Positions 4,877 through 38,144 of a stretch of 58,819 bases of DNA are shown here, one piece after another. Each line of letters begins with the position of its first letter. Positions within the stretch are counted from its first letter, which is position 1. The stretch is taken from the NCBI RefSeq assembly GCF_004104015.1, contig NZ_RYFV01000021.1:1-58819 (forward strand), in the 5' to 3' direction. Below the pieces are notes generated by a model that saw only the letters and a program-made list of their open reading frames with translations, ran no database searches and was not told the DNA's origin. This stretch comes from Actinomyces oricola. Lineage in GTDB: Bacteria; Actinomycetota; Actinomycetes; Actinomycetales; Actinomycetaceae. The translations under genes and the position numbers were made by a program.

Positions 4877-5066
4877 GGTGGTTCCTTATGGTTGTTGGGT
4901 CCCTCGTCCATGAAGCTCCGGGAAACGGGGTGCGGCATGGAGGCGTTGAGGGGGCGGGCGTGTGCCGGTGACGGTTCGCCGCCGTCGGGTACGGGTCGGC
5001 GGGGCGTGCGCCCCAGGCGCCGGGCATGCGCGTGGCGAGACGCGCACAGTGTCATGGCCGGGCGCC

Positions 5067-5117
5067 CTATTGACACATGCAGCAGGAAAGGGGCATCGCG
5101 CACATGACGGTGGTCAT
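5067..5117 (-). CDS. Cysteine-rich leader peptide upstream of cysK
   Basis: A 16-codon ORF reads MTTVMCAMPLSCCMCQ and stops at TAG (5069-5067). It starts at an ATG (5117-5115) placed four bases after a strong AGAGGAGGA ribosome site. Four of 16 residues are cysteine, against a very low frequency elsewhere, and it lies in the 358-base leader of the cysteine operon cysK-cysE. Actinobacterial upstream ORFs with cysteine tracts are known to act as cysteine attenuators: ribosome stalling at Cys codons when Cys-tRNA is scarce opens downstream translation. Function here is inferred from position and composition. The rest of 4877-5234 contains no other gene I can support. Confidence 0.7.
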   Translation of the reverse strand: MTTVMCAMPLSCCMCQ

Positions 5118-20618: not shown

Positions 20619-20695
20619 ACCTCGTATTCTCCTGATGAATGCAAATGGAGTCGCCGGAACACCTGGCGCCCCGGTGCCGGTGGCGCCGCGGGCCC

Positions 20696-22789: not shown

Positions 22790-25564
22790 TCAGGTTCTCG
22801 CCGGCTTGGCGGGGGATTGACCGAGCTCGACGGCGGTGACCGTCGCCGGCGCCGCCTCGGCCCCGTCGCAGACGGCGACCTCCAGGGGGCCGGTAACTTT
22901 GGCGGCCTCGATCAGGTCCGCGCGCACGAGCGCGACGGCGGGCCCGACCTGAGGGGACACCGCTAGGGTGGCTGACAGGATGGGCGTCTTCTGGCTGGTC
23001 TTGGCCTCCGACTTCACCTTGCGCAAGGCCGCCAGGGCCAGTCCCGCGTGTGCGACCAACTCCGCGTCGGCGTCGCCCGCGGCCGCGCGCAACCACCCCG
23101 CCTGTGGCCAGGGGGCGCGGTGGACGCTCCCGGTGCGGTACCAGCTCCACACCTCCTCGGTGACAAAAGGCAGGAAGGGGGCGAACAGGCGCACAAAGGT
23201 GTCCACCGCGATTGCCAGTGCCGTGCGGGCGCTGCGCACGGCGGCCGGGTCGTGCGAGCCGTTGAGATTGTTGGCGCGGTCTTTGACCAGCTCGATGTAG
23301 TCGTCGCAGAAGGCCCAGAAGAAGGCCTCGGCGGCCTCTAGGGCGCGGGCGTGCTCAAAACCATCAAAGGCGGCAGTAGCGGTCTCCACGACGTCGGCCA
23401 GGGACGCCAGCACGGCCCGGTCGATCGGCTCGCTGACCTGCGAGGCGTCCAGGCTGGGCGCCGGGGCGGCCGCGCGGGTCTCCTCATCGGCATCCCAGGG
23501 GATACCCATGGACAGGGCGAACTTGGAGGCGTTGAGGATCTTAATGGCCAGGCGGCGGCCAATCTTGATCTGGGTCTCCTCGAAAGCGGCGTCCATGCCC
23601 AGGCGAGCCGAGGCCGCCCAGTAGCGCACCGCGTCGGAGCCGTACTGCTCCAGCAGGGCCATGGGGGTGACCACATTGCCCTTGGACTTGCTCATCTTCT
23701 TGCGGTCCGGGTCCAGGATCCACCCCGAGATGCCCGCATGCCGCCACGGCAGGGCGCCGAACTCCAGGTCTGCGCGCACCACGGTGGAGAACAGCCAGGT
23801 GCGGATAATGTCCTGGCCCTGGGGGCGCAGATCCATGGGATAGGTGGTGGCGAACAGGGCGTCGTCACCCAGCCAGCCGGTAGCGATCTCAGGGGTCAGG
23901 GAGGAGGTCGCCCAGGTGTCCATAATGTCGAGTTCGCCGACGAAGCCGCCGGGCGCCCCGCGCTGATCCTCAGTGAAACCGGGGGCCGGGTCTGAGGAGG
24001 GGTCGACCGGAAGAGCCGCCTCCTCGGGGACGATGACCGTCTCATAGTCCACCTGCCCGTCGGCTCCCACGCCGTACCACACGGGGAAGGGGACCCCGAA
24101 GAAGCGCTGACGGGAGATGAGCCAGTCGTTGTTCAGGCCCCGCACCCAGTTCTCGTAGCGCACGCGCATGAAGTCGGGGTGGAAGGCCAACTCGCGCCCG
24201 CGCTCGAGCAGCTCATCGGCCAAGTTCATCCCGGAGGCTGGGTTGACCCACTCCTTGCCGCCATTGCGGATGTACCACTGGCGTGAGGTCACGATCTCCA
24301 GGGGCTTGTCCCCCTTCTCGAAGAAGTTCGTCTGGCGCACGGTCTTGACCGGCTCCCCGCGCATCTCCCCACTGGCGGCCAGCTCGGCCACGAGGACCTT
24401 GCGGGCCGAGAAAGTGGTTTTGCCGGCCATCTCGCCGTAGACCCGGCGGCCCTCGCTGCTGGTGATCCACTCGGGGACCTCGGTCTCAATGCGCCCGTCC
24501 TTGCGCAGGATGGCGCGCAAGGGCAGGCCCAAATCCCGCCACCAGTCAATGTCCGTGGTGTCGCCGAAGGTGCAGCACATGGCAATGCCGGCGCCCTTGT
24601 CCATCTCCGCCGAGGGGTGGGCCAGGACCGGGACCTCCACGCCGAAGACGGGGGAGGCCACCGTGGCGCCGAACAGGGGCTGGTAGCGCTTGTCATCGGG
24701 GTGGGCCACCAGGGCCACGCAGGCGGCCAACAGCTCGGGGCGCGTGGTCTCCACGCACACGTCCACGCCGTTCTCAAGCGGTGCCCCCGCAGCCTCGGCG
24801 GCGGCCGCGGCCCCGGCGTCAGTAACATGGAAGGCCAGGCGGTGGTAGAAACCGGGGTACTCGCGCGACTCCAGCTCCGCCTGAGCGACAGCGGTGCCGA
24901 AGGTCACATCCCACAGGCCCGGGGCGGCCGCCTGGTAGGCCTCCCCGCGGGCGAGATTGCGCAGGAAAGCGGCCTGAGCCACTTTGCGGGCCCGCTCTCC
25001 AATGGTCTGGTAGGTGTGCGACCAGTCCACGCTCAGCCCCAGGCGGCGCCACAGCGCCTCGAAGAGCTTCTCGTCCTCCAGCGTCAAGCGTTCGCACAAC
25101 TCCACGAAGTTGCGTCGGGAGATCGGCACCTGATCCCTGGCCTTCACGGACTTGCCCTCCCCGCCTTCGTGCGGCGGGGTGAAGTTCGGGTCATAGGGCA
25201 GGGAGGGGTCGCAGCGCACCCCGAAGTAGTTCTGGACGCGACGCTCGGTGGGCAGGCCATTGTCATCCCAACCCATGGGGTAGAACACGGCCTTGCCGCG
25301 CATGCGCTGGTAACGGGCGACAGTATCGGTGTGCGTGTAGGAGAAGACGTGACCCACGTGCAGGGAGCCGGAGACCGTGGGCGGCGGGGTGTCGATGGAG
25401 AAGACCTCGGGGCGCTTCGCGGCGGCGTCGAAAGCGTAGATGTGCTGGTCCTCCCAGCGCTCGCCCCAGGCGGCCTCCAAGCCGTCGGCGCTCACCTTGG
25501 CCGGCACGCGCGGGCTGTGGAGCTCGGAGGGCAAGTGGCGGGGGGAGTGGTCGGTCTCAGACAT
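22790..25564 (-). CDS. valS: Valyl-tRNA synthetase
   Basis: It charges tRNA-Val in the cytosol. The 924-residue class I enzyme has the HIGH-type motif in PPPTVSGSLHVGHVFSYTHT and the KMSKS loop in DRKKMSKSKGNVV. The editing (CP1) domain lies between them, and an anticodon-binding helical domain follows. The SYTHTDTVARYQRMRGKAVF wording matches the actinobacterial ValS branch. I chose the ATG at 25564 (MSETDHSPRHLPSELHSPRV); the frame is open for 11 more codons upstream. It is divergent from the iron-box-controlled ECF operon. Confidence 0.96.
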   Translation of the reverse strand: MSETDHSPRHLPSELHSPRVPAKVSADGLEAAWGERWEDQHIYAFDAAAKRPEVFSIDTPPPTVSGSLHVGHVFSYTHTDTVARYQRMRGKAVFYPMGWDDNGLPTERRVQNYFGVRCDPSLPYDPNFTPPHEGGEGKSVKARDQVPISRRNFVELCERLTLEDEKLFEALWRRLGLSVDWSHTYQTIGERARKVAQAAFLRNLARGEAYQAAAPGLWDVTFGTAVAQAELESREYPGFYHRLAFHVTDAGAAAAAEAAGAPLENGVDVCVETTRPELLAACVALVAHPDDKRYQPLFGATVASPVFGVEVPVLAHPSAEMDKGAGIAMCCTFGDTTDIDWWRDLGLPLRAILRKDGRIETEVPEWITSSEGRRVYGEMAGKTTFSARKVLVAELAASGEMRGEPVKTVRQTNFFEKGDKPLEIVTSRQWYIRNGGKEWVNPASGMNLADELLERGRELAFHPDFMRVRYENWVRGLNNDWLISRQRFFGVPFPVWYGVGADGQVDYETVIVPEEAALPVDPSSDPAPGFTEDQRGAPGGFVGELDIMDTWATSSLTPEIATGWLGDDALFATTYPMDLRPQGQDIIRTWLFSTVVRADLEFGALPWRHAGISGWILDPDRKKMSKSKGNVVTPMALLEQYGSDAVRYWAASARLGMDAAFEETQIKIGRRLAIKILNASKFALSMGIPWDADEETRAAAPAPSLDASQVSEPIDRAVLASLADVVETATAAFDGFEHARALEAAEAFFWAFCDDYIELVKDRANNLNGSHDPAAVRSARTALAIAVDTFVRLFAPFLPFVTEEVWSWYRTGSVHRAPWPQAGWLRAAAGDADAELVAHAGLALAALRKVKSEAKTSQKTPILSATLAVSPQVGPAVALVRADLIEAAKVTGPLEVAVCDGAEAAPATVTAVELGQSPAKPART

Positions 25565-25655
25565 GGTCCGAATTCTGTCATGGGCCGGTGGTGCCACTGC
25601 GGCACGGGTGGGTCTCGCCCTATGAGGTGGGCCACGGGGCTCCTCGCAGCCTGTG

Positions 25656-25697
25656 TTAGGTTAGGCGCGCCTAATTCAGTATTCGAACCTGGTTCGA
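25656..25697 (+). promoter_or_regulatory. DtxR/IdeR-type iron box (and second dyad) before the ECF island
   Basis: TTAGGTTAGGCGCGCCTAA (25656-25674) matches the DtxR/IdeR consensus at 16 of 19 positions and contains a perfect 14-bp palindrome, TTAGGCG/CGCCTAA. A second dyad, TCGAACC-t-GGTTCGA (25683-25697), lies nine bases further. Both are between divergent valS and the first ECF gene. Iron-dependent repression of the ECF/exporter operon is the natural reading; it is inference from the motif and the gene content. Confidence 0.75.
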
Positions 25698-25732
25698 CTC
25701 GAGCTCGGGCGCCCCCAGCGAAAGGAATGAGC

Positions 25733-26338
25733 ATGACCGGTACCAGCGCCGCAGGCGACCGCATCACCACTCCGCGCAACCTCATTAACGTCGGCGTCTT
25801 CACCGCGGTCTACTTCGTCGCCCTTTTCGCCACCGGCATGCTCGGAGCCATCCACCCGACCATGATCTTCATAGGAGGGCTGCTCGGCTCCCTCATCAAT
25901 GCCATGGTCTGCATGCTCTACGTGGCCAAGACGCGGGCCCTGGGCGCCTACACCCTCCTGGGGCTCATTATTGGCCTGCTCATGGTGGCCACCGGTCACG
26001 CCTGGGTCACCCCGATCCTCTCCACAGTCCTGGGCGCCCTGGCCGACATCATCACCCGCAGCGGAGGGTATGTAAGAACCTCGACGAACTGCTTGGGCTT
26101 CGCCGTGTTCTCCATGTGGGGCATTGGCCCGATGCTGCCGATCCTGTGGGCCTCGGACGAGTACTTCGCGAAGACGGCCTCCTCCATGGGGCAGGACTAT
26201 GCGGACAAGTTCCAGGCGCTCGTCTCGCCACCGGTCATCGGGGGCTGGCTGGTCCTCAGCCTCCTGGTCGCCTACGCCTGCGCACTGCTGGGCATGAAGG
26301 TCCTCCACAGGCACTTCGAGCGCGCCGGCGTCGCCTGA
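25733..26338 (+). CDS. MptD-family ECF transporter S component (substrate binding)
   Basis: The 201-residue membrane protein has about six helices. It resembles the MptD/Trep_Strep family of ECF S components, with an N-terminal RNLINVGVFTAVYFVALFAT, the PTMIFIGGLLGSLINA region and ADIITRSGGYVRTSTNCLGF. The S component determines cargo. Related streptococcal and lactobacillal ECF systems next to iron boxes take up haem or iron ligands; that precedent is the basis for the iron assignment. The ATG at 25733 has AAAGGA six bases upstream; an in-frame ATG sits at 25727. It is followed after four bases by the T component. Confidence 0.85.
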   Translation: MTGTSAAGDRITTPRNLINVGVFTAVYFVALFATGMLGAIHPTMIFIGGLLGSLINAMVCMLYVAKTRALGAYTLLGLIIGLLMVATGHAWVTPILSTVLGALADIITRSGGYVRTSTNCLGFAVFSMWGIGPMLPILWASDEYFAKTASSMGQDYADKFQALVSPPVIGGWLVLSLLVAYACALLGMKVLHRHFERAGVA

Positions 26339-26342
26339 GCCC

Positions 26343-27071
26343 GTGTCCGCCATCGCCCCGGCGTCCTTGGACGCCTCCTCGACCGTGCGGATTGCCGCCG
26401 ACCCGCGCAGCAAGTTCCTCCTCCTGTTGGTGGCCAACGTGATACTCATGACGTCAGGGTCCGGCCACGTCGTGTGGCTCGTACTCGTGGTTGCGGCGAT
26501 CCTCGCCGCGGTCGACCTGCGTGCGCGCCTGGCCGCGGGCCTGGTCGCGCTCAGTGTCCTGTTCTGGTTCGCCGCGGGGCTGCCGCGCCTGTGGCACCAC
26601 GGGGCGGCCGTGGTGGTCGGCGTCGTCGCCTACTGGCTGCTGCGCTTCGGGCTGTCCATCGCCCTGGGCACCTGGTTCATCTCCTCGACTCGAGTCAGCG
26701 AGCTGACCGCCTCCGCCAGCGATATGAGGATGCCCCGCGTCCTCACCACCCCCCTAGCGGTCCTCTTCCGCTTCCTGCCGGTGGTCATTGACGAGACCAA
26801 GGGCGTTATGGAAGCCATGAGCCTGCGCGGCTACACCGGTTCCTACCTGTGGCGCCACCCCGTTGACGGCGTGGAGAAACTGGTGGTCCCGGTTCTCACC
26901 GCCTGCGCCCGGATCGCCGATGAACTCTCCGCGGCCGCCCTCATTCGGGGGCTGGGGGTCAGCGGGCGGCCAACACTCGTGGACAAGCCGCGCTTCCGGA
27001 CGGCCGACGCCGCCCTGCTCGGCCTGTCTCTCATACTCCTGGTCTACCGGTACTGGGGGGCGAAGCCATGA
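26343..27071 (+). CDS. ECF transporter T component (CbiQ/EcfT-like transmembrane coupler)
   Basis: The 242-residue membrane protein with five or so TM segments transmits ATPase movement to the S component. It has the EcfT coupling motifs: the first Ala-Arg-type motif appears as MSLRGYTGSYLWRHPV and the second as AALIRGLGVSGRPTL, both near the C-terminal half. GTG start four bases after the S gene stop; it overlaps the ATPase gene by ATGA. The arrangement S-T-A in one run makes a dedicated (group I) ECF transporter. Confidence 0.88.
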   Translation: MSAIAPASLDASSTVRIAADPRSKFLLLLVANVILMTSGSGHVVWLVLVVAAILAAVDLRARLAAGLVALSVLFWFAAGLPRLWHHGAAVVVGVVAYWLLRFGLSIALGTWFISSTRVSELTASASDMRMPRVLTTPLAVLFRFLPVVIDETKGVMEAMSLRGYTGSYLWRHPVDGVEKLVVPVLTACARIADELSAAALIRGLGVSGRPTLVDKPRFRTADAALLGLSLILLVYRYWGAKP

Positions 27072-28639
27072 CCATCAGCGTTAAGGGGGTTTCCTACACC
27101 TACCCCACTGGTGCCAAGGTGCTCGACGACATCGACCTGGCCCCCGCCGAGGGCTCCCTGACCCTGGTGTGCGGGGCCAGTGGCTCGGGCAAGTCCACGT
27201 TGGTGCGTCTCATGAATGGTCTCATCCCGCACTTCCACCACGGTGAGCGGGACGGAGAGGTCACCGTGGAGGGTCGTGAGGTCGCCGGGACCCCCATTGA
27301 GGAGATGGGCAGGCTGACGGCCACCGTCTTCCAGAACCCCGCCTCCCAGTTCTTCACCACCACTGTGGCTGACGAACTCATCTTCGCGGGCCAGAACTAT
27401 CAGGTCGAGGCCAAGGAGATCCGACGACGTCGAGCTCAGGCCGTCACTGAGCTCGGCATTGAAGACCTCCTGGGCCGTGATCTCAAGGGTCTGTCCGGAG
27501 GGCAGCTCCAGAAGGTGGCCTGCGCCCAGGCCCTGGCCCAGGCCACCCCCGTTGTTCTCCTGGACGAGCCCACCTCCAACCTCGATCCCGAGGCCATTGA
27601 GGATGTTCGTGCCGCAATCCAGCGCCTTAAGGAGCTTGGGCGCACCATTGTCGTGGCCGAGCACCGTGTTTATTTCCTTCAAGGCCTGGTTGACGAGGTC
27701 GTTCTTATGAGCAAGGGGCGGATTGTCGGGCGTATGGACGGGGCCTCCTTCTACGCCATGGGTGAGGAGGAGCGTCGCGCCCTGGGCTTGCGCACCTTGG
27801 AGCGCCCTGAGCTGGACCTGCCAGTCAGGGTGATCCCCGCTCGGCGCGGCGCGGAGGAGCCCGCCGGGAACAGTGGCGGGCGAGTGCCGTCATGGGCGGG
27901 CCGAGCGCAATGCGTAACGTACCCCGCGTACTCCGCCCAGCGCGGCGGGGAGGGGCCCGCCGGGGGCAAAGGGGGGCGGGAGGCGATGGCGTCGAGCGCC
28001 GGCGCCTCCCCGGGGCCGAGGTCGAGCACCCTCACGGACGACCGCTCGTCGCGCCCCGAAGGGGCCGGCGCCCCCAGCGGCGCTCTCCTCATTGAGAACC
28101 TCGTCGTCGAAGGCGGCGGTCGCCGGATCTTGGATATTGACTCCCTGTCCTTCACCGCCGGCGCCATTACCGGCGTGGTGGGGGCCAATGGCATTGGCAA
28201 GACCACCCTCGCCCGCGCCGTCTGCCGCCTGCAACGGGCCCGGCGCGGGGTGCGCATCACCCTTGACAACAAGCCCTTGCGCCGGGGTCAGGCCTTCTTA
28301 GTCATGCAGGACGTCCACCGCCAGCTCTTCGCCGAGTCCGTGAGCGACGAGGCCAGCGCCCCTCAGCTGGGCCGCCTCGACCTGGCCGCTCTCGCCGACC
28401 GCCACCCCCTCTCACTGAGCGGCGGGCAAAAGCAGAGGCTCGTCATAGCCACCGCCATGGATCAAGACGCCCGCGTCCTCATCCTCGATGAGCCCACCTC
28501 TGGCGTCGACAGACATCACCTGGACTCCATTGCCGCTGAGCTGCGCGCACTGGCGGACGAGGGGCGTGTGGTGATCGTCATCAGTCATGACATGGAGTTC
28601 CTCAATGAGTGCGCAGACAGTATGGTTGCCCTCATCTGA
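27068..28639 (+). CDS. Two-domain ECF ATPase with an unusual long linker
   Basis: Both energising ATPases of the ECF module are fused in 523 residues. Domain 1 (about 1-250) has Walker A GASGSGKS (36-43), LSGGQ (142-146) and Walker B VVLLDE (162-167). Domain 2 (about 340-523) has Walker A GANGIGKT (372-379), LSGGQ (450-454) and Walker B VLILDE (470-475). Domain 2 lacks much of the helical region and is shorter than usual. Between them, residues about 256-338 are a Gly/Ser/Ala/Arg-rich low-complexity linker that looks like inserted noncoding DNA kept in frame. It works with the S and T subunits encoded just upstream. Confidence 0.88.
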   Translation: MTISVKGVSYTYPTGAKVLDDIDLAPAEGSLTLVCGASGSGKSTLVRLMNGLIPHFHHGERDGEVTVEGREVAGTPIEEMGRLTATVFQNPASQFFTTTVADELIFAGQNYQVEAKEIRRRRAQAVTELGIEDLLGRDLKGLSGGQLQKVACAQALAQATPVVLLDEPTSNLDPEAIEDVRAAIQRLKELGRTIVVAEHRVYFLQGLVDEVVLMSKGRIVGRMDGASFYAMGEEERRALGLRTLERPELDLPVRVIPARRGAEEPAGNSGGRVPSWAGRAQCVTYPAYSAQRGGEGPAGGKGGREAMASSAGASPGPRSSTLTDDRSSRPEGAGAPSGALLIENLVVEGGGRRILDIDSLSFTAGAITGVVGANGIGKTTLARAVCRLQRARRGVRITLDNKPLRRGQAFLVMQDVHRQLFAESVSDEASAPQLGRLDLAALADRHPLSLSGGQKQRLVIATAMDQDARVLILDEPTSGVDRHHLDSIAAELRALADEGRVVIVISHDMEFLNECADSMVALI

Positions 28640-28661
28640 TCCGATGATGATAATCATTCCT
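28626..28661 (+). promoter_or_regulatory. Internal promoter overlapping a Fur-like box
   Basis: TTGCCC (28626-28631), 17 bases, then GATAAT (28649-28654) make a promoter at the end of the first ECF ATPase gene. GATGATGATAATCATTCCT (28643-28661) matches the classical Fur box GATAATGATAATCATTATC at 15 of 19 positions and covers the -10. Fur and Zur sites share this core, so iron or zinc control are both possible. It would let the second ECF module be regulated separately from the DtxR-like box 3 kb upstream. Confidence 0.6.
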
Positions 28662-28744
28662 ATTTAAGGATGGAGGTGAAGTGATAAGCCACCGCGAACC
28701 CCGGCGCCACTGCCGCATTGCCCACCCCAGATAAAGGACGAACC

Positions 28745-29359
28745 ATGACTCAGTCCAACCCCGCGACCACAGATCCCCGCCCCATCCACTCCTCGGCCCG
28801 CCAGGGCCAGGCCGACTCGGTGCTGGGCACCCGCAACCTCATGACCGTTGCCGCGCTGAGCGTTGTCGGCATGATCATCCTGCTGCCCCTGAACTACCTC
28901 GCCCCGGCCACCGGGGTGACCAGCACCGGAGCGGTGTTCGCCGGCGTGGCCATTATGGGCCTGTGGGTCATCCCCTACCTGCTGCCCGCCACCGTTGTGC
29001 GCCGCCCCGGCGCCGTCATCATCGCCGCGCTCATTATGGGCATTATCAGCGTATTCACCACCCCCTCCGGCCCCGGCGCCCTTGTGGGGAACCTCCTGGG
29101 CGGTGCCTTCATAGAGGTGCCGTTGGCCCTCATGCTGTACCGCAAGTGGACCTGGTGGTCCTTCCTCATCTCGGCGGCCGTCTTCGGCCTGATCAACGGG
29201 ACGATGTACATCATGCTGCTCAAAGAGGCCGTCGGGCTATCCGTCTCCCTGCCCCTGGTCGTCGTCTCCATTATCTCGGCCCTGGTCGGCGGCGCTATCA
29301 CCATTGGGCTGACCCGTCTGCTCAACAACGCCGGCGTCGGCATCGACAACCGTGCCTGA
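28745..29359 (+). CDS. Second ECF transporter S component (YkoE-like)
   Basis: The 204-residue membrane protein begins with a hydrophilic 30-residue tail, then five or six helices. It contains VGNLLGGAFIEVPLALMLYR and WTWWSFLISAAVFGLINGTM, which recall the YkoE/ABC_cobalt group of S components. YkoE members carry thiamine precursors, but here the gene sits in a metal-regulated island, so cargo is open. The ATG at 28745 has AAAGGA upstream. Its stop overlaps the GTG start of the following fusion gene by eight bases, so the two are coupled. Confidence 0.82.
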   Translation: MTQSNPATTDPRPIHSSARQGQADSVLGTRNLMTVAALSVVGMIILLPLNYLAPATGVTSTGAVFAGVAIMGLWVIPYLLPATVVRRPGAVIIAALIMGIISVFTTPSGPGALVGNLLGGAFIEVPLALMLYRKWTWWSFLISAAVFGLINGTMYIMLLKEAVGLSVSLPLVVVSIISALVGGAITIGLTRLLNNAGVGIDNRA

Positions 29360-31823
29360 GCAGATGGTGGCCGCCATCACCGCCGAATCCCCCGGGGGCG
29401 CCCCGGCCCCCGGCGGCGCCCAGGACGGCCTCGTCGTCACGGTCAAGGACCTGTCCGTCCACTACCTCGGGCGTCGCGGTTGGGTTCTGGACTCCGTGGA
29501 TCTGACCCACCTGCGCGGCCGCGTCACCGCCGTCATCGGCCCCTCCGGCTGCGGCAAGACCACCCTTGTGCGCACCTTGTGCGGCCTCGTCCCCCACTGC
29601 CTGCCCTCCCGGTACGCCGGCAGCGCCTGCCTGTCGGGAACCGAGATCGCCGACGCCACCGTGCGCTTCCTGGCCGAGCGGGTGGGCTACGTCGGGCAGA
29701 ACCCCGACGCCGCCGTCGTCACCCGCACCGTCCACGACGACGTCGCCTTCCCCCTGGCCAACCTGTGCCTGGGGCGCGAGGAGATCGAGGCGCGCGTCAT
29801 TGACTCCCTGTTCCGCGTGGGCCTTCTGGAGCGGATCTGGGAGGACCCCTGGACCCTGTCCGGGGGGCAGCGCCAGCGCCTGGCCGCGGCCGCCGCCCTG
29901 GCCATGCGCCCGGGCCTTCTCATCCTGGACGAACCCACCTCCACCATTGACACCACCGGCCGGGCCGAGTTCTACGGGCTTATCGCCCAGCTCGTCTCCA
30001 CCGGCACCGGTGTGATCGTCATCGACCACGACCTTGATCCGATTCTGCCCCTGGTCGACCAGGTTCTGGCCCTGGACGCCTCCGGGCGCACCATAGCCAC
30101 CGGCAGCCCCCGCGATGTTTTCATGACCCACCGCTGTGAGCTCATCTCGGCCGGAGTATGGATGCCCCGGGCTTTGCGCAGCGCCCCTACGGGCCCCGGG
30201 AGCCCGCTGACCTGCGCCGAGGCGGGCATCACCGTCCCCGCGCTGTCGGACCTGTGCGCCCCGGGAGCCGTCCGGTGCCTGCGGCGCGGGGAGGCCGGCT
30301 GGCAGCAGGTCGAGTCCATTGATACTGCTGATACCGCCGATACTGCTGATACCGCCGATACCGCCGCCCACCCGCCCCCCGGAGAGCCGGCCCCTGTCGA
30401 CCTGGTGGACCTGGAGGTCCCCGGCCGCTGCCCGCCCGTGACCATGCGCCTGGGGGGAGGAGAACTCCTCGCCCTCGTCGGACCCAACGGCGCGGGCAAG
30501 TCCTCTCTGCTGTCGGCTCTCGGCGGCCTCATCGACTCCACGGCCACGCGCGCCACAGTCTGCGGCAGGCCCATTAAACGCGGACGCCACCGCGTTGGCT
30601 ACGTCTTCCAGAACCCCGAGCACCAGTTCGTCACCACCACGGTGCGCCGCGAGTTGGCCGTCGGGGGCGCCACCCCCGAGCGGGTCGAGGAGCTTCTGAC
30701 CCAGTTCCACCTCACCGAGCACGCCGACCACCACCCCTTGACCCTCTCCGGCGGGCAAGCCCGGCGCCTGTCGGTGGCCACCATGGTCAGTGAGGAGCGA
30801 CAGGTCATTGTCCTAGACGAGCCCACCTACGGGCAGGACTGGGACAACACCTGTGAACTCATGGCCTTCATTGAGGAGCTCAGGGGGCAGGGCCGCACCA
30901 TTATTGTGGCCACTCACGACCTGGAACTGGCGCTGGACCACTGCACCCACGTCCTGGCCCTGCCCGCGCCCGAGGCTCCTGGCGCCACCCCCGTCTCGGG
31001 CACCACCAGTGGCGGCAGCACCGCCCCCAGCGTCAATAGCCCCCGACCTCGGTCCCAGGGCCATGGGGCCCCGGAGGGCGGACTCATGCCGCCCCCGCGC
31101 CCTCGGCAGCGCCCCGGCCTGTTGACGGGCCTGAATCCCCTGACCCTTTTCGGCGCCCTCATTCCCGCCATGGTCATGATCTTCGCCCTCAAGGAGCCCA
31201 GTCTCAACGTGACCGTCCTGGCCTCGGCCAGTCTTCTCATGGTCGCCGCCCGGGCCCCCCGCAGACGCACCATTGCCTCGGTAGCAGGCGTGTGGGCCAT
31301 AACCGGGCTCCTAGCCTGGGTGTTCTCCGGCCGCTCCTCCCTGGGAGAGGCTTCCAAGGTCTACGACCTCGGCACGGCCGCCGCCGGCGCCACCGGCATT
31401 GGCGCCCTGGTCGCCCTGGTGCTCCTCTCCGGCATCTCCACCGATCCCGAGGCCCTTATCCGCACCCTGACCAGCACCTTCCGCATGCCGTACCGCATTG
31501 GATCGGCGGGAACGGCCGCCATCGCCTTCACCACCCGCTTCCGGCAAGATTTCGCCACCCTGCGCACCGCCCGCGCCCTGCGCGGCATTGGGAAGCGCTG
31601 GGGCCCGCTCGCCCCGCTGGTGCGCTGGGCGGGCTCGTTGGTGCCCCTCATGATTCTGGCGGTCCAGCACGCAGAACGGGTCGCCCTGTCCATGGACTCA
31701 CGCGCCTTCGGGGCCTATCCGCAGCGCACCGAGCTTGCGGACACCCCATGGCGCCGACGTGATTGGGCCGTCATGGCCTGCACCTGGGCGGCAACCGCCT
31801 GCACCTGGGCCTGGCTCCTATAG
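29352..31823 (+). CDS. Single-chain ECF energising module: ATPase-ATPase-T fusion
   Basis: One 823-residue polypeptide carries all three energising parts of an ECF transporter. ATPase 1 (about 28-270) has Walker A GPSGCGKT (63-70), LSGGQ (169-173) and Walker B LLILDE (189-194). A linker includes five DTA repeats (324-338). ATPase 2 (about 348-540) has GPNGAGKS (377-384), LSGGQ (465-469) and VIVLDE (485-490). After a Pro/Ser/Gly-rich linker comes a T-component domain (about 590-823) with several TM helices and coupling motifs ARALRGIGKRWGPL and MDSRAFGAYPQRT. ECF ATPase pairs are often fused, but A-A-T on one chain is uncommon. It starts with GTG inside the S gene. Confidence 0.88.
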   Translation: MPEQMVAAITAESPGGAPAPGGAQDGLVVTVKDLSVHYLGRRGWVLDSVDLTHLRGRVTAVIGPSGCGKTTLVRTLCGLVPHCLPSRYAGSACLSGTEIADATVRFLAERVGYVGQNPDAAVVTRTVHDDVAFPLANLCLGREEIEARVIDSLFRVGLLERIWEDPWTLSGGQRQRLAAAAALAMRPGLLILDEPTSTIDTTGRAEFYGLIAQLVSTGTGVIVIDHDLDPILPLVDQVLALDASGRTIATGSPRDVFMTHRCELISAGVWMPRALRSAPTGPGSPLTCAEAGITVPALSDLCAPGAVRCLRRGEAGWQQVESIDTADTADTADTADTAAHPPPGEPAPVDLVDLEVPGRCPPVTMRLGGGELLALVGPNGAGKSSLLSALGGLIDSTATRATVCGRPIKRGRHRVGYVFQNPEHQFVTTTVRRELAVGGATPERVEELLTQFHLTEHADHHPLTLSGGQARRLSVATMVSEERQVIVLDEPTYGQDWDNTCELMAFIEELRGQGRTIIVATHDLELALDHCTHVLALPAPEAPGATPVSGTTSGGSTAPSVNSPRPRSQGHGAPEGGLMPPPRPRQRPGLLTGLNPLTLFGALIPAMVMIFALKEPSLNVTVLASASLLMVAARAPRRRTIASVAGVWAITGLLAWVFSGRSSLGEASKVYDLGTAAAGATGIGALVALVLLSGISTDPEALIRTLTSTFRMPYRIGSAGTAAIAFTTRFRQDFATLRTARALRGIGKRWGPLAPLVRWAGSLVPLMILAVQHAERVALSMDSRAFGAYPQRTELADTPWRRRDWAVMACTWAATACTWAWLL
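30321..30365 (+). repeat. Five 9-bp in-frame tandem repeats
   Basis: Five copies of GATAC(T/C)GC(T/C) encode (Asp-Thr-Ala)5 in the linker between the two ATPase domains of the fusion protein. Copies alternate GATACTGCT and GATACCGCC, so an 18-bp unit also repeats. Copy number may vary by slippage without breaking the frame. Confidence 0.92.
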
Positions 31824-31888
31824 GCCGGACCCCGTCCCACACCCCGGCGCGCCCGCCGCGCAACCGACCCCACAGGAGGGGGACCTCA

Positions 31889-33703
31889 ATGAAAGTGACC
31901 ATAAGCGATCTCATAAGGCCCGCGCGCGGATCCATGATCCTCTCCGGCATCCTCACCGCCATCGGGGCGGTCCTGTCAATCGTGCCCTTCGTGGCGCTGC
32001 GGAACATGGCCGCCATCTGGTTGGACGAGTCCGACGCCCAGGGATGGGCCGCCGACCCCCGGGCGTGGGCGGTAATCGCCGTCCTGGCCCTCTTCGCCGC
32101 CCAGTTCCTGTACCTGCTGGGCCTGGGTCTTACTCACCTGGCTGAGGCCAAACTGCGTCACTACTTGCGCGGCCGGGTGGTGGACGCCCTGAGTCGCCTG
32201 CCGCTGGGCCGTGTTGCCGCCATCCCTCACGGCGCCATCCGCAAGATGGTTTGCGACGACACCTCCTCCATCCACACCCTCGTCGCCCACGTCCCCGGGG
32301 ACGCCACCTCCGCCGTGGCCACGGCACTGGTCGGCATCGCCTACCTGCTGTGGACGGACTGGAGGCTGACCCTGGCGATCCTGGCCGTGTGGTGCGTGGT
32401 CTTCGCCGTCGTCGCCTCCGCAATGCGCACCTTCGGCGGTATTACTGAGCGCTTCGGCGCCGCACAGACCGCGCTCGCCGCCGCCACCGTTGAGATGCTC
32501 GAAGGCATTAAGGAGATCAAGAACTTCCAGGCCACCGACGCCTCCCGGACCCGTTTTAACGCCGCCCGGGAGCGCTTCTCCGCCATCTCCTACGAGTGGA
32601 CGAGTCAATCCGGCAAGATGGTGAGCCTCATGGGGGCGCTGCTGCGCCCGGCCACCATCTTCGCCACGGTGGCGCCCCTGGCGGTCCTCTTCGTTTGGCA
32701 GGGCTGGACCCAACTCTCGGCCACCCTGCCCTTCTTCCTGGTCGCCCTCGGGCTGCCTGAGGGCTTTCTCACGCTCGTGAGCATGATGCAGCAGATGTAC
32801 GAGTCCAAGATGGCCGCGCGCACCACCGCCGAACTGCTTTCCGAGGAGCCCATGCCCGAGGGGTCCTTCAATGAAGGGGAGGGCTCCGCCCCGGGGCTGG
32901 TCGAGGTCGACGACGTGACCTTCGCCTACGAGCCCGGCTCGCCGGTGCTCCATGGCGTGTCCTTCACCGCCCAACCCGGTACCGTCACCGCGCTCGTGGG
33001 GCCCTCCGGCGGGGGCAAGTCAACGCTCGCCCGCCTCATCGCCCGCTTCTACGACGTCGAATCCGGGGCGGTGCGGATCAGTGGCGTTGACGTGCGCGAG
33101 GCCGCTTTCCCCTGGCTGCTCTCCCGGGTGGCCATCGTCTTGCAGGACGTGGCCCTATCCCACGACTCGGTGCACGACAACATCGCCCTGGGACGCCCGG
33201 GCGCCACCCGCGCCCAGGTGGAGGACGCCGCCCGCGCCGCCTGCATCCATGAGCGCATTACCCGTCTGCCTCAGGGGTATGACACGGTTCTGGGAGAGGA
33301 GGGCGGCTTCCTGTCCGGCGGCGAACAACAGCGAGTGACCCTAGCGCGCGCCTACCTGCAGAACGCGCCCATTCTCATCCTCGATGAGGCGACCGCACAG
33401 GCCGATCCCGCTTCCGAGCGGGACATCCACCTGGCCCTGTCCCGCCTCGCGGCCGGGCGCACCGTCATTATCATTGCCCACCGCCTGTCGACTATTCGCG
33501 ACGCGGACCAGATCCTCGTCGTCGACGACGGACGGATTATCGAGAGGGGCGCCCACCCCGAGCTCTTGGCCGCGCAGGGGCGCTACGCCTCCATGTGGCA
33601 CAGCCAGGACCTGGGGCGGGTGAGCGCGGGCACCCGCACCGGCGAAGAAACCGGCGAAGAAACGGACCGCGCCATTATGGACGCTACCGGGGAAGGAAAA
33701 TGA
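31889..33703 (+). CDS. ABC half-transporter (TM + ATPase), IrtA/YbtP-like
   Basis: The 604-residue protein has an N-terminal six-helix domain (about 15-310) and a C-terminal ATPase domain with Walker A GPSGGGKS (371-378), signature LSGGE (475-479) and Walker B ILILDE (495-500). The fold is that of exporters, but half-transporter pairs beside siderophore systems (IrtAB, YbtPQ) actually import metal-siderophore complexes. The ATG at 31889 follows GGAGGGGGA. Its stop overlaps the next gene start (ATGA), which argues for a heterodimer with that product. The C-terminal tail has repeated TGEETGEETD. Confidence 0.9.
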   Translation: MKVTISDLIRPARGSMILSGILTAIGAVLSIVPFVALRNMAAIWLDESDAQGWAADPRAWAVIAVLALFAAQFLYLLGLGLTHLAEAKLRHYLRGRVVDALSRLPLGRVAAIPHGAIRKMVCDDTSSIHTLVAHVPGDATSAVATALVGIAYLLWTDWRLTLAILAVWCVVFAVVASAMRTFGGITERFGAAQTALAAATVEMLEGIKEIKNFQATDASRTRFNAARERFSAISYEWTSQSGKMVSLMGALLRPATIFATVAPLAVLFVWQGWTQLSATLPFFLVALGLPEGFLTLVSMMQQMYESKMAARTTAELLSEEPMPEGSFNEGEGSAPGLVEVDDVTFAYEPGSPVLHGVSFTAQPGTVTALVGPSGGGKSTLARLIARFYDVESGAVRISGVDVREAAFPWLLSRVAIVLQDVALSHDSVHDNIALGRPGATRAQVEDAARAACIHERITRLPQGYDTVLGEEGGFLSGGEQQRVTLARAYLQNAPILILDEATAQADPASERDIHLALSRLAAGRTVIIIAHRLSTIRDADQILVVDDGRIIERGAHPELLAAQGRYASMWHSQDLGRVSAGTRTGEETGEETDRAIMDATGEGK

Positions 33704-35436
33704 CCATGTGGACTATGTTGATGCGCCTGGTCAACGCGCGCGAAATGCGGATAATCGTCGTTTGGTTCATTGTCTCCGCCGTCCTCCAGGGGCTCACCCT
33801 GGCCCTCATGATTCCCTTCCTGCGGGCCGTCTACGCCGAGTCGGAGTCGTTGGGGGCCTGGCTGGTGGCGGTCCTCGTGCTGGGAGCGATCACCCTGGTG
33901 GTCGACACCATCGCCATGTACCGCTCCTACCGGGTCAGCGTCTACGAGATCTGCGACATCATGATCGATCGCGTCGCCGAGCACGTCCTGACTCTGCCCC
34001 TGGGCTGGTTCAACGCCGAGCGGGAGGCGGCCGTGGTCAACGCGACCTCCAAGGAGGTCAACACCCTGTCGCACCTGGCTTCCATGGTCATCCCGAACCT
34101 GTGCAACGCCTTCATTGTGCCCCTGGTCATGCTGGGGGCCACCGCTTTTATTGAGTGGCCCCTGGCGCTCATTATGGCCATCGCCATTGGGCCGCTGGTC
34201 CTGATCTGGCGGAGCATGGGCGCGGCCACCACCCGCGCCAACGAGATGGAGGACTCCGCCTCGGCGGCGGCCGCCGGGCGCCTGGTCGAGTTCGCCCGCC
34301 TTCAGCCGGTCCTGCGCGCCGCTGGGGTCACTCAGACCGGGTGGGAGCCGGTTCGTCAGACCCTCCAGGTCGACTCTGACGCCACCTTGAGCGGGCTGCG
34401 CGTCAAGGGGCGCCCCGCCCAAGCCTTCAACTTGGTGGTCAATATCGCTTTCGCCCTGGTCATGGCCCTGGGGCTGTCCTTCGTCAGCGGGCACCGGCTC
34501 GACGTCGTCGCCTACCTGGCGATTATGGCGGTCACCGCGCGCATGCTCCTGCCCCTGACCAAGGCCGCCATGTTCTCCTCCGAGGCCGACAATGCGAAGG
34601 TCGCCCTGAAGGCCATGAGCTCCATCCTCGACGCCAAGCCCCTGCCCGACCCCGCCCCGGGACAGGAGGCTCATCCCGAGGGCACCACCATCGCCCTGTC
34701 CGGGGTCTCCTTCGCCTACGACGAGGGTCGTCCCGTCCTGACCGATGTGTCATTGACCGCGCCCCAGGGCCGGGTCACCGCCCTCGTGGGGCCCTCGGGT
34801 GCGGGCAAGTCGACCATCCTGCGTCTGGCCGCCCGCTTCTGGGATGTTGGCGGCGGGTCGGTGAGCATTGGCGGCGCCGATGTGCGCCAGATGCCCGCCG
34901 CACGGGTTATGGAGATGATCTCCATGGTTTTCCAGGACGTGTACCTCTTCGACACCACCATCCGCGAGAACCTGCGTGTGGCTCGCCCCGAGGCCACCGA
35001 CGAGGAGTTGACCACCGCCGCGCGCCGGGCCCGCCTGGACCGAGTTATTGACGCCCTCCCGCACGGCTGGGATACGCGGGTGGGGCCCGGCGGCCTGAGT
35101 CTGTCCGGCGGTGAGCGCCAGCGCGTGTCCATTGCCCGCGCCTTCGTCAAGGACGCCCCCATCCTGCTCCTCGATGAGATCACCTCCGCCCTGGACGGGG
35201 AGAACGAGTCGGCCATTACCGAGGTCATCCGCGAGCTGTCCCACGGCCGCACAGTCATGGTGGTGGCTCACCGTCTGTCTACGGTGCGCCATGCCGACGA
35301 GGTGGTCTTCCTGGAGCCCACCCCCCGGGGCGCCCGGGTGGCGCAGCGCGGCGCACCGGAGGACCTCGCACAGGCACAGGGTCCCTTCCGCGACTTCGTG
35401 GAGGCTTCGACCGCCTCATCCCGCTGGCGGCTGTAG
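33700..35436 (+). CDS. ABC half-transporter (TM + ATPase), IrtB/YbtQ-like
   Basis: Partner of the preceding gene; 578 residues. The TM domain occupies about 15-300, followed by an ATPase domain with Walker A GPSGAGKS (364-371), signature LSGGERQRVSIARAF and Walker B ILLLDEITSALD. Both partners have consensus catalytic sites, so neither looks degenerate. Direction of transport cannot be read from sequence. It is the last gene of the island; a long hairpin at 35478-35523 ends the transcript. Heterodimer formation is inferred from the ATGA overlap and pairing in siderophore loci. Confidence 0.9.
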   Translation: MTMWTMLMRLVNAREMRIIVVWFIVSAVLQGLTLALMIPFLRAVYAESESLGAWLVAVLVLGAITLVVDTIAMYRSYRVSVYEICDIMIDRVAEHVLTLPLGWFNAEREAAVVNATSKEVNTLSHLASMVIPNLCNAFIVPLVMLGATAFIEWPLALIMAIAIGPLVLIWRSMGAATTRANEMEDSASAAAAGRLVEFARLQPVLRAAGVTQTGWEPVRQTLQVDSDATLSGLRVKGRPAQAFNLVVNIAFALVMALGLSFVSGHRLDVVAYLAIMAVTARMLLPLTKAAMFSSEADNAKVALKAMSSILDAKPLPDPAPGQEAHPEGTTIALSGVSFAYDEGRPVLTDVSLTAPQGRVTALVGPSGAGKSTILRLAARFWDVGGGSVSIGGADVRQMPAARVMEMISMVFQDVYLFDTTIRENLRVARPEATDEELTTAARRARLDRVIDALPHGWDTRVGPGGLSLSGGERQRVSIARAFVKDAPILLLDEITSALDGENESAITEVIRELSHGRTVMVVAHRLSTVRHADEVVFLEPTPRGARVAQRGAPEDLAQAQGPFRDFVEASTASSRWRL

Positions 35437-35477
35437 CCCCCCGCCTCCCTTCCTCCCCCCTCCCCGCCCCTTCGACA

Positions 35478-35523
35478 AAATCCTCACAGCACAACGTCCA
35501 CGGACGTCGTGCTGTGAGGATTT
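35478..35523. terminator. Long bidirectional terminator
   Basis: Arms AAATCCTCACAGCAC-a-ACGTCC and GGACGT-c-GTGCTGTGAGGATTT pair over 21 of 22 positions around a two-base loop, between the convergent ABC exporter gene and proC. The A-run before and T-run after serve both directions. Confidence 0.88.
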
Positions 35524-35546
35524 CGTTGGAGGGGAGGGGTGAGGGG

Positions 35547-36371
35547 TTAGGCGCCGAGTTGCCGGTCCCGGGCCACGGTCGCCTCGAAGCCGCGTATGAC
35601 GGCGTCGGAGAACCCGGCCCGCTCCATGGCCACCAGTCCAGCCACCGTGGTGCCCCCGGGAGAGGAGACTGCGTCAATGAGGTCGGCAGGGGTGCGTCCT
35701 GGGTCGCCGGCCGCGCGCCGGGCCGCCTCGACCTGGACGGTGCGCGCCGAGCCGAGCACCGCTTGGGCAACGATGTCGACCGCCTGGGCCTTGGGGATGC
35801 CGCCGAGCACGCCGGCGCGTGCCAGGGCCTCGATAAAGGCGAAGACGAAGGCGGGGGAGGAGCCGGACAATGCGGTGAAGGTGGAGAAGTCCTTCTCCTC
35901 CAAGACGATGGTGCGCCCCACCGAATCCATGAGTGCGCGCGCCCTGGCCAGGTCACCGTCGCTGGCCTGCGATCCTGCGCAGAGGGCGCTCATGGCCTCC
36001 CCGACCGTGGCCGCCATATTCGGCATAACGCGCACTACCCGGGCGCCCTCGGGCAGGATCCCCTCCAAACGTGTTGTCGTGATCCCCGCGGCGATGGAGG
36101 CGATCAGTGGATTGTGGAGGCGGACCGCCTCGCTGATCTCCGTGGCCACAAGTGGGACCACGTGCGGCTTGACCGCGAGCACGACGACGTCGCTACCCGC
36201 GACCACGTCGCTGTTCGAGGCGGCCTCGATGGCGCCAGTGGCCTGCGCTAGGCGGGTGGCGGTGCCCTCGGTGCCGGTCAGGAGGATGTGGTCGGCCGGG
36301 GTTCCCGCCGCGATCGTTCCACGCACGATCGCGCCCGCCATTGCCCCCGCTCCAATGAATCCAATGCGCAC
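35547..36371 (-). CDS. proC: Pyrroline-5-carboxylate reductase
   Basis: It reduces P5C to proline with NAD(P)H. The 274-residue protein starts VRIGFIGAGAMAGAIVRGTI (dinucleotide fold) and has RVMPNMAATVGEAMSALC and SGSSPAFVFAFIEALARAGV. The ProC signature around DAVSSPGGTTVAGL closes it. The start is GTG at 36371 behind GGAAGGAG; the frame is open 16 codons further upstream. It lies next to an Lrp-type regulator and ornithine cyclodeaminase, so the cluster appears devoted to proline supply. Confidence 0.94.
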   Translation of the reverse strand: MRIGFIGAGAMAGAIVRGTIAAGTPADHILLTGTEGTATRLAQATGAIEAASNSDVVAGSDVVVLAVKPHVVPLVATEISEAVRLHNPLIASIAAGITTTRLEGILPEGARVVRVMPNMAATVGEAMSALCAGSQASDGDLARARALMDSVGRTIVLEEKDFSTFTALSGSSPAFVFAFIEALARAGVLGGIPKAQAVDIVAQAVLGSARTVQVEAARRAAGDPGRTPADLIDAVSSPGGTTVAGLVAMERAGFSDAVIRGFEATVARDRQLGA

Positions 36372-36494
36372 GGCGGCTCCTTCCAGTAGACGGCCCGGTT
36401 CCGAGGGGATCGGCGCCAATGTACCGCGCGCCCATCCAGTTCCAGGGTCAGGCGGCCTCGACCTGCCGTTGGACCCGGCCCGCGGCGGCCGCGC

Positions 36495-36935
36495 TCACAG
36501 GAGCACACTGCGCAGCAGCAGGTTGGTTTCAGAGCGGTGCACGCCCTCGATCTCCCGGATGCGCCCCAGTGCCCGGTCAATGTCCGCCAGGTCGGTCACC
36601 GTGAGCTCGGCGATAAGATCCCACTCCCCATTGGTGGCGTGCAGGGCCGTGACGGCGGGCAGGCCCCGCAGCGCCGTGATCGCCGCCCTCATGGTGCGGC
36701 CCTCAATCGCCAGGTGGCAGATGGCACGGATTGCGTGCGGGTCGGCGTCCTGGGCCAGGCGCACCGTGAACCCCAAGATGATGCCGCGCTCTTCCAGTCT
36801 GGCGATTCGCTTGGTGACGGTTGCCCGAGTCACGCCTAGTTCCCGGGCCAATTCGGCGACAGGGGCCCGTCCATCGGCCCGCAGGGCGGTAATCAACGCA
36901 TGGTCAAGTTCGTCGAGCACATCGAGTGCAACCAT
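36495..36935 (-). CDS. Lrp/AsnC-family transcriptional regulator
   Basis: The 146-residue protein has the N-terminal winged helix LDHALITALRADGRAPVAEL with ARELGVTRATVTKRIARLEE, then the RAM ligand domain (FTVRLAQDADPHAIRAICHL ... VTALHATNGEWDLIAELTV). Such regulators sense amino acids. The ATG at 36935 was chosen; the frame extends 13 codons upstream. It is divergent from ornithine cyclodeaminase (37125) and upstream of proC on the same strand, so it is likely to control one or both. Three ATTGTG copies lie in the divergent region (36942, 36986, 37002). Confidence 0.9.
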   Translation of the reverse strand: MVALDVLDELDHALITALRADGRAPVAELARELGVTRATVTKRIARLEERGIILGFTVRLAQDADPHAIRAICHLAIEGRTMRAAITALRGLPAVTALHATNGEWDLIAELTVTDLADIDRALGRIREIEGVHRSETNLLLRSVLL

Positions 36936-37002
36936 GTGCATATTGTGTCTTTCTGATGTGCTAACTGCAAGCATATAGGGCGCAGATTGTGCAGGCAGCT
37001 CA

Positions 37003-37032
37003 TTGTGAGGGCACGCGGGCTCGCCCTACTCT
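37003..37032 (+). promoter_or_regulatory. Promoter for ornithine cyclodeaminase
   Basis: TTGTGA (37003-37008), an 18-base spacer and TACTCT (37027-37032) lie about 93 bases before the ATG of the cyclodeaminase gene. One of three ATTGTG repeats overlaps the -35 box, a possible binding half-site for the divergent Lrp-type regulator. Confidence 0.5.
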
Positions 37033-37124
37033 GGCAGTCAGGACCAAGGCCCTGGGACACCGTCGGGCGCCGTCCTCATCCCCTACGTCCAGTGGCCGTC
37101 CGCCGCCTTAAAAGGAGGGCTCCT

Positions 37125-38144
37125 ATGCGCTTCGTCGATGTCCCCCACATGGCCCGTTGGATCACCGAGTCCGGCCCCGAGGCCGTTATCGCCGGCATGA
37201 TCGACGCACTGGAGGCCGACTTCGCGCGCTGGGAGTGCTTTGAGCTGCGTCCTCGGATCGCCTCCCACTCCACTGAGGGCGTCATTGAGCTCATGCCGAC
37301 ATCCGACGGCGCGACCTACGGCTTCAAGTTCGTCAATGGCCACCCGATCAACCCCTCCCGGGGCTACCAGACCGTGACCGCCTTTGGCGTCCTGGCGGAC
37401 GTCCACAACGGCTATCCGCGCCTCCTGGCCGAGATGACGCTCCTGACCGCCCTGCGCACCGCTGCCGTTTCAGGCCTGGCCACACGCCTCCTGGCGCCGG
37501 CCGGCGCCACGCGCCTGGGCCTTGTCGGCGCCGGGTCCCAGGCCGAGTTCCAGGTCCTGGCCGTGTGCGCCGTGCGCTCCATTCAGCAGGTCGCCGTCTA
37601 CGACGTCGACCCCGCCGCATCGGCCAAACTCGCCCGCAACCTGGCCCGCCACGGCATTGACGTGCGCATTGCCGCCAGTGCGGCCCAGGCCGTCGCCGGC
37701 GCCGACGTCATCACCACCTGCACCGCCGATAAGCGCAACGCCATTGTCCTGGAACGCCAGGACGTCCGCCCCGGAGTCCACATCAATGGCATTGGCGGGG
37801 ACTGCCCCGGCAAGACTGAACTTGATCCGGCGATCCTCGACATGGGACCGGTTTTCGTTGAGCACGCCCCGCAGACACGCGTCGAGGGCGAGATTCAAGC
37901 CAAAGACTCCGACTACCCCGTCACCGAGCTGTGGGAGGTTGTTGCCGGGCGCGAACCAGGACGCACCAGCGAGGAGCAAACCACGATCTTCGATTCCGTG
38001 GGCTTCGCGGTTGAGGATTTCTCCGCGCTGTCCTATCTCGATCGGGTGCTCGATACCCCCGGGGGGAGGCGTTTCTGCCAGCAGATCAATCTGCTCGCCT
38101 CCCCAGCGGACCCCAAGGACCTCTACGCCCTCCTCGGGCAGTGA
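37125..38144 (+). CDS. Ornithine cyclodeaminase family protein (mu-crystallin fold)
   Basis: Family members convert ornithine to proline and ammonia using NAD as an internal redox cofactor. The 339-residue protein has a substrate domain with HSTEGVIELMPTSDGATYGF and KFVNGHPINP, AEMTLLTALRTAAVSGLAT, then the Rossmann motif LGLVGAGSQAEFQ and INGIGGDCPGKTELD. The length suits ornithine cyclodeaminase. The ATG at 37125 follows AAAAGGAGG. With proC next door it gives two routes to proline; other family members act on other imino acids, so the substrate is inferred from context. Confidence 0.9.
   Translation: MRFVDVPHMARWITESGPEAVIAGMIDALEADFARWECFELRPRIASHSTEGVIELMPTSDGATYGFKFVNGHPINPSRGYQTVTAFGVLADVHNGYPRLLAEMTLLTALRTAAVSGLATRLLAPAGATRLGLVGAGSQAEFQVLAVCAVRSIQQVAVYDVDPAASAKLARNLARHGIDVRIAASAAQAVAGADVITTCTADKRNAIVLERQDVRPGVHINGIGGDCPGKTELDPAILDMGPVFVEHAPQTRVEGEIQAKDSDYPVTELWEVVAGREPGRTSEEQTTIFDSVGFAVEDFSALSYLDRVLDTPGGRRFCQQINLLASPADPKDLYALLGQ

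Follow-up and report, generated by a model that had tools for sequence, protein, structure and literature searches.

The window analysed here, the 58,819-nucleotide contig NZ_RYFV01000021.1 of Actinomyces oricola, carries a run of seven co-directional genes that spans positions 25733-35436 and encodes two energy-coupling factor (ECF) importers together with a pair of ATP-binding cassette (ABC) half-transporters. According to the open reading frames (ORFs) of the window and a Pfam/NCBIfam scan, all seven genes are open and none is broken. The first ECF block consists of S1 (25733..26338, on the + strand like all genes of the run), an S component of the MptD family (Trep_Strep) that matches PF09605 with 174 bits and TIGR02185 with 112 bits (cut-off 76), each score exceeding its cut-off, and for which an in-frame ATG at 25727 is an alternative start; T1 (26343..27071), a T component of the CbiQ family (PF02361, 56 bits, cut-off 25); and A1 (27068..28639), a fused double ECF ATPase (A-A) with two ABC_tran stretches, both domains of which carry their motifs. 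The second block consists of S2 (28745..29359), an S component of the YkoE fold (PF09819), and E (29352..31823), a single-chain A-A-T energising module for S2 with two ABC_tran stretches and a CbiQ match at residues 603-793. The run ends with the half-transporters F (31889..33703), on the IrtA/YbtP side, and G (33700..35436), on the IrtB/YbtQ side, each with ABC_membrane and ABC_tran domains.

Walker A, signature and Walker B motifs are present in six of the six ATPase domains. With a recognised S family, a T component and two ATPase domains in one run, S1-T1-A1 classes as a group I ECF transporter, and S2-E does so as well, with an S component and dedicated A, A and T parts. The Pfam and NCBIfam families bear out the assignments made in a preliminary description of this DNA, namely an S-T-A module, a second S component with an A-A-T partner and a half-transporter pair. 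Its picture of genes packed by ATGA-type overlaps is partly right: three junctions overlap, T1/A1 and F/G (4 nt each) and S2/E (8 nt), whereas the coordinates of the other three give gaps of 4 nt (S1-T1), 105 nt (A1-S2) and 65 nt (E-F). A1 is 523 aa long in the window and 482-493 aa in close relatives, the surplus being, by eye, a GC-rich linker at 27820-28080; in E, a short tandem repeat coding (DTA)5 lies at about 30315-30370, in the stretch that links its two ATPase domains.

Comparison of F and G with the PDB, in which the best 60 of 580 rows for F and of 583 rows for G were considered, supports the earlier view that the two form an IrtAB/YbtPQ kind of pair. The rows that score above the half-length relatives are double-length ABCB proteins, whose scores cover two stretches. 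Among the half-length rows, F is closest to IrtA (368.6 bits), with YbtPQ chain A at 283.9 bits and MsbA at 268.0 bits, and G is closest to YbtQ (259.3 bits), followed by IrtB (248.2 bits). IrtA carries an N-terminal siderophore-interacting reductase domain. In the alignment, residue 6 of F pairs with residue 320 of the 908-residue IrtA (6tej), so the N-terminal part of IrtA is absent from F; in line with this, Pfam finds on F the ABC_membrane and ABC_tran domains, an SMC_N by-match and nothing else. The pair in the window therefore resembles YbtPQ and IrtAB as neighbouring half-transporters, and differs from them in the missing reductase part of F and in its linkage to ECF importers.

Separable and mobile ECF cassettes

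The stronger result of the analysis is the cassette behaviour of the ECF blocks. The clusters compared were chosen for holding S1, S2 or F and therefore are not a random sample. After nine loci that repeat a genome were dropped, 71 clusters comprise 30 with S2-E and F-G, 12 with S1 and F-G, 6 with both blocks and F-G, 15 partial clusters and 8 with F-G and no linked ECF block, the last including two (L054 and L076) that were anchored wrongly. Among 39 S2 loci, which were not selected for F-G, F and G both stand beside S2-E in 30, neither does in 8, and F alone is found at a contig end in one. Gene orders vary as well, with F-G placed before S1-T1-A1, F-G before S2-E, or T1-A1 before S1.

ECF partners change within one F lineage. 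In a tree of 56 F proteins, for which L054 and L076 were labelled by hand and in which L055 forms a very long branch of unsure place, the window falls in a 10-row group (support 97/94) made up of six loci with both blocks, two with S2 only and two with S1 only, and this group is nested in a 22-row group (98/98) with 12 S2-only rows. The breaks at which blocks are present or absent are clean. Specifically, genomes G100 and G112 share 85% DNA identity on either side of a break at which G112 has 2,970 bp (S1-T1-A1) and G100 has 86 bp, and the window and G131, flanked alike by valS on the left and by DNA of the proC region on the right, differ in between by 3,287 bp (S2-E) versus 166 bp. Genome G062 has S2-E on the same strand as S1 and about 16 kb away from it, with a 15/19 DtxR-type box of its own. 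Taken together, the clean breaks, the partner changes and the split in G062 establish the ECF blocks as separable plug-in modules around a constant, shared F-G pair.

The full seven-gene run is rare. Among 151 genomes of the family, 59 match S1 and 30 match S2, the latter in part weakly, and the tables place S1 and S2 less than 5 kb apart in three, all of the window's genus. In the 49 genomes of the genus, S2 occurs in 28 (E up to 1e-20), S1 in 20 (E up to 1e-15) and both in 14, and the two are adjacent in 8; seven of the 49 carry all seven genes, with the order kept. Strains with the complete set include A. oris S64C, A. oris WE8B-23 and A. johnsonii CCUG 34287. In the eighth genome with adjacent S1 and S2, F-G was not found in the stretches fetched. 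The co-occurrence check proposed in the preliminary description thus returns a full run in few genomes. That description also counted unrelated and rarely adjacent modules as telling against a joint system, and this is partly what is found, the S components being of different families and adjacent in 8 of 49 genomes, yet each block adjoins such a pair separately. Independent iron-regulated transporters that merely lie side by side and share no ligand would agree with a full run in 7 of 49 genomes and with ECF blocks that come and go. We regard such a chance neighbourhood as rather unlikely, because an ECF block with a half-transporter pair recurs with its genes in different orders, across divergent F lineages, on a Corynebacterium plasmid and, similarly, in the equibactin locus discussed below, which would hardly be expected of random parking. 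The probabilities that we attach to this and to the other rival explanations are not mutually exclusive.

One cassette is found nearly unchanged in distant genera. An island of about 8.4 kb comprising S2-E-F-G and flank has 99.1-99.6% DNA identity in the pairs compared across five genomes, those of Brachybacterium timonense, Gulosibacter hominis, Pseudoglutamicibacter albus, [Zimmermannella] alba and G096, a member of the window's family; additionally, [Zimmermannella] bifida and Z. alba are 99.3% identical over 10.1 kb (near-identical loci: L085:6981-19982, L086, L087, L088, L091 and L064). The copies in G096 and B. timonense sit on megabase contigs, which makes mis-binning unlikely. In B. 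timonense, a transposase of the IS256/Mutator type lies inside the shared block 3' of G and an ISL3 transposase lies upstream, and two outer ORFs match the N-terminal part and the methyltransferase/recognition parts of MmeI, so that the island appears to interrupt an MmeI-type gene. No plasmid record contains the S2-E-F-G island; 11 such records match it only at the downstream end, and in eight or nine of these the match falls in an IS256-type gene. An S1-T1-A1-F-G run of relatives, with a 37% identical S1 and a 15/19 DtxR box, is carried by a 20,681-bp mobilizable plasmid of Corynebacterium aurimucosum (L145:8184-14528, NZ_CP068167.1), and PLSDB holds three records of 20,681 bp under two species. 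Relatives in the order F-G-S1-T1-A1 also lie on a plasmid of Salmonella enterica subsp. salamae (L146:4600-10650, CP053317.1), where the matches of S1 and G fall in more than one frame.

Candidate regulatory elements in front of and within the run

A DtxR/IdeR-type box, TTAGGTTAGGCGCGCCTAA, lies at 25656-25674 (no strand assigned), just upstream of S1 as the preliminary description had it, and is the operator candidate for the run. It agrees at 16 of 19 positions with the 19-mer that we take to be the DtxR/IdeR consensus. In 60 first-order random sequences of window length, sites of 14/19 number 0.07 per window and none scores higher. The 2.93-Mb host genome holds two sites with at most three mismatches, the window box included, against none for the reversed-pattern control; the other site (C34:132226) lies, by eye, between methyltransferase-like and citrate-synthase-like frames. 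Two DtxR-type genes are present in the host genome, and the product of one matches IdeR with 224 bits and DtxR with 217 bits, with SH3 and FeoA model matches below cut-offs.

In the fetched neighbourhoods, a box of at least 14/19 fronts 45 of 80 clusters, 41 of the 71 that remain without genome-repeating loci, and 35 of 65 when six near-copies are also dropped, a set that still holds one near-identical pair (L064 and L085). The boxes before S1 in L054 (16/19) and before S2 in L076 (14/19), the two loci anchored wrongly by the script, are uncounted. As controls, 9 of 1509 segments drawn at random from these loci hold a box of this quality, and so do 4 of 380 regions upstream of other ORFs, one of these four being really an S2 gene; at cluster fronts the boxes are found irrespective of which ECF cassette leads. 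Near one S1 cluster, a perfect 19/19 box (L051:4097-4115) precedes another frame (4125-5078), upstream of an ABC-ATPase-like frame. The boxes kept in related clusters and the DtxR/IdeR homologue of the host make DtxR control of the run likely, as had been proposed.

A second element (28626..28660, + strand) separates the two ECF blocks. Here a promoter-like match, TTGCCC-17-GATAAT (28626-28654), overlies a palindrome, GATGATGATAATCATTCC (28643-28660), in the 105-nt gap before S2; the palindrome resembles a Fur/Zur box and its regulator is putative. The interval 25500-35700 contains 2 promoter-like matches, with 0.9 expected. Each of the 10 loci compared, of which eight carry both blocks and two S2 only, has the core ATGATAAT(C/G)ATT upstream of S2, although the remainder of the A1-S2 gap varies widely among the window, G175 and the A. 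oris group. Upstream of S2, a Zur-type pattern fixed post hoc, after the sequences had been viewed, agrees at 11 of 12 fixed positions in nine loci and at 10 of 12 in the window; at 11/12 it occurs in 2 of 1509 random segments, in 0 of 380 upstream regions and at 3 of 80 cluster fronts. A related 15-mer has 30 sites with at most three mismatches in the host genome versus 6 for the reversed pattern, and the sole Fur-family gene of that genome lies just 3' of a ZnuA-family gene and its apparent ATPase and permease genes. Of six genomic 15-mer sites inspected, one is at the start of that znuA and five have no evident zinc gene behind them. In L054 (genome G124), a Zur-like 15-mer (13/15) and the 16/19 DtxR box both precede S1, a second case of paired metal-type boxes.

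It is possible, judging by these motifs, that S2-E-F-G is served by a zinc-controlled second promoter, and the element could also be a plain promoter. The earlier claim of one metal switch is doubtful, given the conserved Fur/Zur-like palindrome that sits, together with a promoter-like match, between the blocks. A rival explanation is a zinc or mixed-metal chelate system, in which S2-E-F-G would have its own Zur-controlled promoter and serve zinc as well as iron. The constant core, the rarity of the pattern in the controls, the genomic excess of the 15-mer, and the position of both the Fur-family gene and one site at znuA speak for it; even so, we consider it quite improbable, since the pattern was defined after viewing the sequences, most of the ten loci are close relatives and the window copy is the weakest, the overlap with GATAAT could make the element a mere promoter, the three cluster fronts at 11/12 are all in the window's own group, and five of the six inspected sites are not before an evident zinc gene.

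Candidate ligands and precedents

The known cargoes of ECF transporters are chiefly vitamins and Ni/Co, and the thiamine system YkoEDC has a thiamine pyrophosphate (TPP) riboswitch upstream. S2 belongs to the same family as YkoE (PF09819) and its fold matches 5edl. According to the structural report, YkoE contacts thiamine through Tyr46, Trp49, Glu77, Gln95 and Asp131 (PMC5037267; 5edl). In an alignment of low identity, S2 and its homologues keep only Trp49 (39 of 39) of these five; Tyr46 is replaced by M, L or I, Glu77 has an acidic counterpart in none of them, Gly takes the place of Gln95 in all 39, and Asp131 is never Asp. hhalign agrees for Tyr46, Trp49 and Gln95, with Glu77 opposite a gap and Asp131 beyond its reach. 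At Rfam gathering scores the window contains no TPP riboswitch, two tRNAs being the only matches that reach them. As far as YkoEDC is described there, the window system also differs from it in its fused A, A and T parts and in having DtxR boxes (PMC5037267). A thiamine importer was therefore rejected for S2, since four of the five contact residues are absent. The wider vitamin explanation, in which S2 would take thiamine or hydroxymethylpyrimidine, S1 another vitamin, and F-G would be an unrelated exporter, fits the family and fold of S2 and is very improbable indeed, given the missing contacts and the presence of DtxR boxes in place of a riboswitch.

The closest precedent is the equibactin locus of Streptococcus equi. 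There the DtxR-like protein EqbA is the repressor, the genes eqbH-J specify a putative ABC importer, and a YbtPQ/IrtAB-like pair is encoded by eqbK-L; deletion of eqbHIJ lowers equibactin-dependent iron accumulation, deletion of eqbKL does not prevent an iron-toxicity phenotype, and efflux is suggested by the authors (PMC3672683). For a related cluster of Clostridioides difficile RT023, the genes listed next to the synthetases are those of two ABC proteins and an ABC ATPase, together with an AraC regulator, a membrane protein and a 'cobalt transporter, Ecf' (PMC6814731). Because the C. difficile counterpart gene bears this label, EqbHIJ may be taken for an ECF transporter (PMC6814731). By the parts described, the window has analogues of those in the equibactin locus, namely a three-gene importer with permease and ATPase components, a YbtPQ/IrtAB-like pair and probable DtxR-type control (PMC3672683). 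Unlike the window, that locus has one such importer, a linked non-ribosomal peptide synthetase (NRPS) that makes the siderophore, and a suggested EqbA operator, a 36-bp palindrome, unlike known iron boxes, whereas in the window the ECF blocks number two and the host genome shows no Condensation match (PMC3672683). The preliminary statement that the combination is not a recognised one is weakened by these precedents of an importer beside such a pair (PMC3672683, PMC6814731). In the titles and abstract openings searched, a coverage that leaves out most subscription papers, no description of two ECF blocks with a half-transporter pair was found. What is new is thus narrowed to the presence of both cassettes together in a small group of Actinomyces.

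Nothing in the host genome matches the Condensation (NRPS) domain or the IucA_IucC domain, other siderophore routes being outside this search, and a home-made siderophore was rejected to that extent. A metal-dependent repressor and a siderophore operon have reportedly been described in Actinomyces; the literature search did not confirm them. When 532 flank ORFs of the loci were grouped by similarity, the 11 groups present in at least four loci, read by eye, were valS, ABC ATPases, Pup-ligase-like and aminotransferase-like frames, a MerR-like regulator, and spurious frames. In the window itself, two neighbouring paralogous frames at 18726-22615 resemble, by eye, long-chain acyl-CoA synthetases. 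Downstream of the run, 35547-38144 holds a pyrroline-5-carboxylate reductase, an Lrp/AsnC regulator and an ornithine cyclodeaminase-family gene, which look like proline metabolism and not related to the run.

Haem was considered as another ligand. An ECF-type haem importer that works under iron limitation exists in Staphylococcus lugdunensis (PMC7299338), and S1, perhaps with S2, could take haem in like manner, F-G then handling haem or a related porphyrin, with which the DtxR box would be compatible. The likeness to this Lha system, an ECF importer supplying iron, is by description and not by sequence; MptD/Trep_Strep is not mentioned in the main text of the report, and no half-transporter pair is noted in the text available (PMC7299338). 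Moreover, F and G are closest to siderophore transporters among the half-length PDB rows considered, and we hold a haem importer to be rather improbable.

Proposed mechanism and its meaning

As the best explanation of the whole, we propose that the run is probably an iron-starvation uptake system for metal chelates, built of exchangeable cassettes. When iron is scarce, a DtxR/IdeR-type repressor would leave the box at 25656 and the run would be transcribed, and an internal promoter may additionally serve S2-E-F-G. S1 would bind one small ligand and be energised by T1 and the A-A protein A1, and S2 would bind another ligand, or the same one, with the single-chain A-A-T protein E as its energising partner. 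Both blocks would thereby import scarce chelates, most likely siderophores of other bacteria, since the host genome lacks Condensation and IucA/C domains; iron bound to such foreign siderophores is the likeliest ligand. F-G would act on the same class of ligand, either importing the metal-siderophore, as YbtPQ and IrtAB do, or returning the stripped chelator, as suggested for EqbKL. The equibactin and C. difficile precedents lead us to read the window as the same kind of system without the synthetases.

Several points weigh against this proposal. In 8 of 39 loci S2-E has no F-G beside it, a further locus being truncated by the contig end, and in 6 of 56 tree rows no ECF block is linked to F-G, so that each may act alone. 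A box of at least 14/19 is absent from the front of 30 of 71 clusters, and no siderophore synthesis gene was noticed among the shared flank families, which were read by eye and not by a Pfam scan. Additionally, we know of no ligand for MptD-type S components, and the structure predicted for S1 from the window and four homologues has a pLDDT (predicted local distance difference test) of 52, was too poor and was not used.

A bolder form of the cassette proposal makes S1-T1-A1 and S2-E interchangeable specificity heads on one F-G pair. The block in front would pick the foreign metal chelate, F-G would be the common second step of import or recycling, a double switch would respond to iron through DtxR and to zinc through Zur, and the blocks would be traded from family to family by insertion sequence (IS)-linked and plasmid transfer. 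Taken with all its parts, this form has in our view a small chance of being correct.

A role of ECF transporters in iron uptake has so far been a matter of few cases. In this locus and its relatives, two S-component families are repeatedly linked to YbtPQ/IrtAB-like pairs, with DtxR-type boxes in front. The linked genes form discrete cassettes, and one of these is nearly unchanged across distant Actinobacteria. The cargo of the MptD- and YkoE-like S components thereby becomes testable, as does the question of whether an ECF-linked half-transporter pair imports the same chelate or recycles it.

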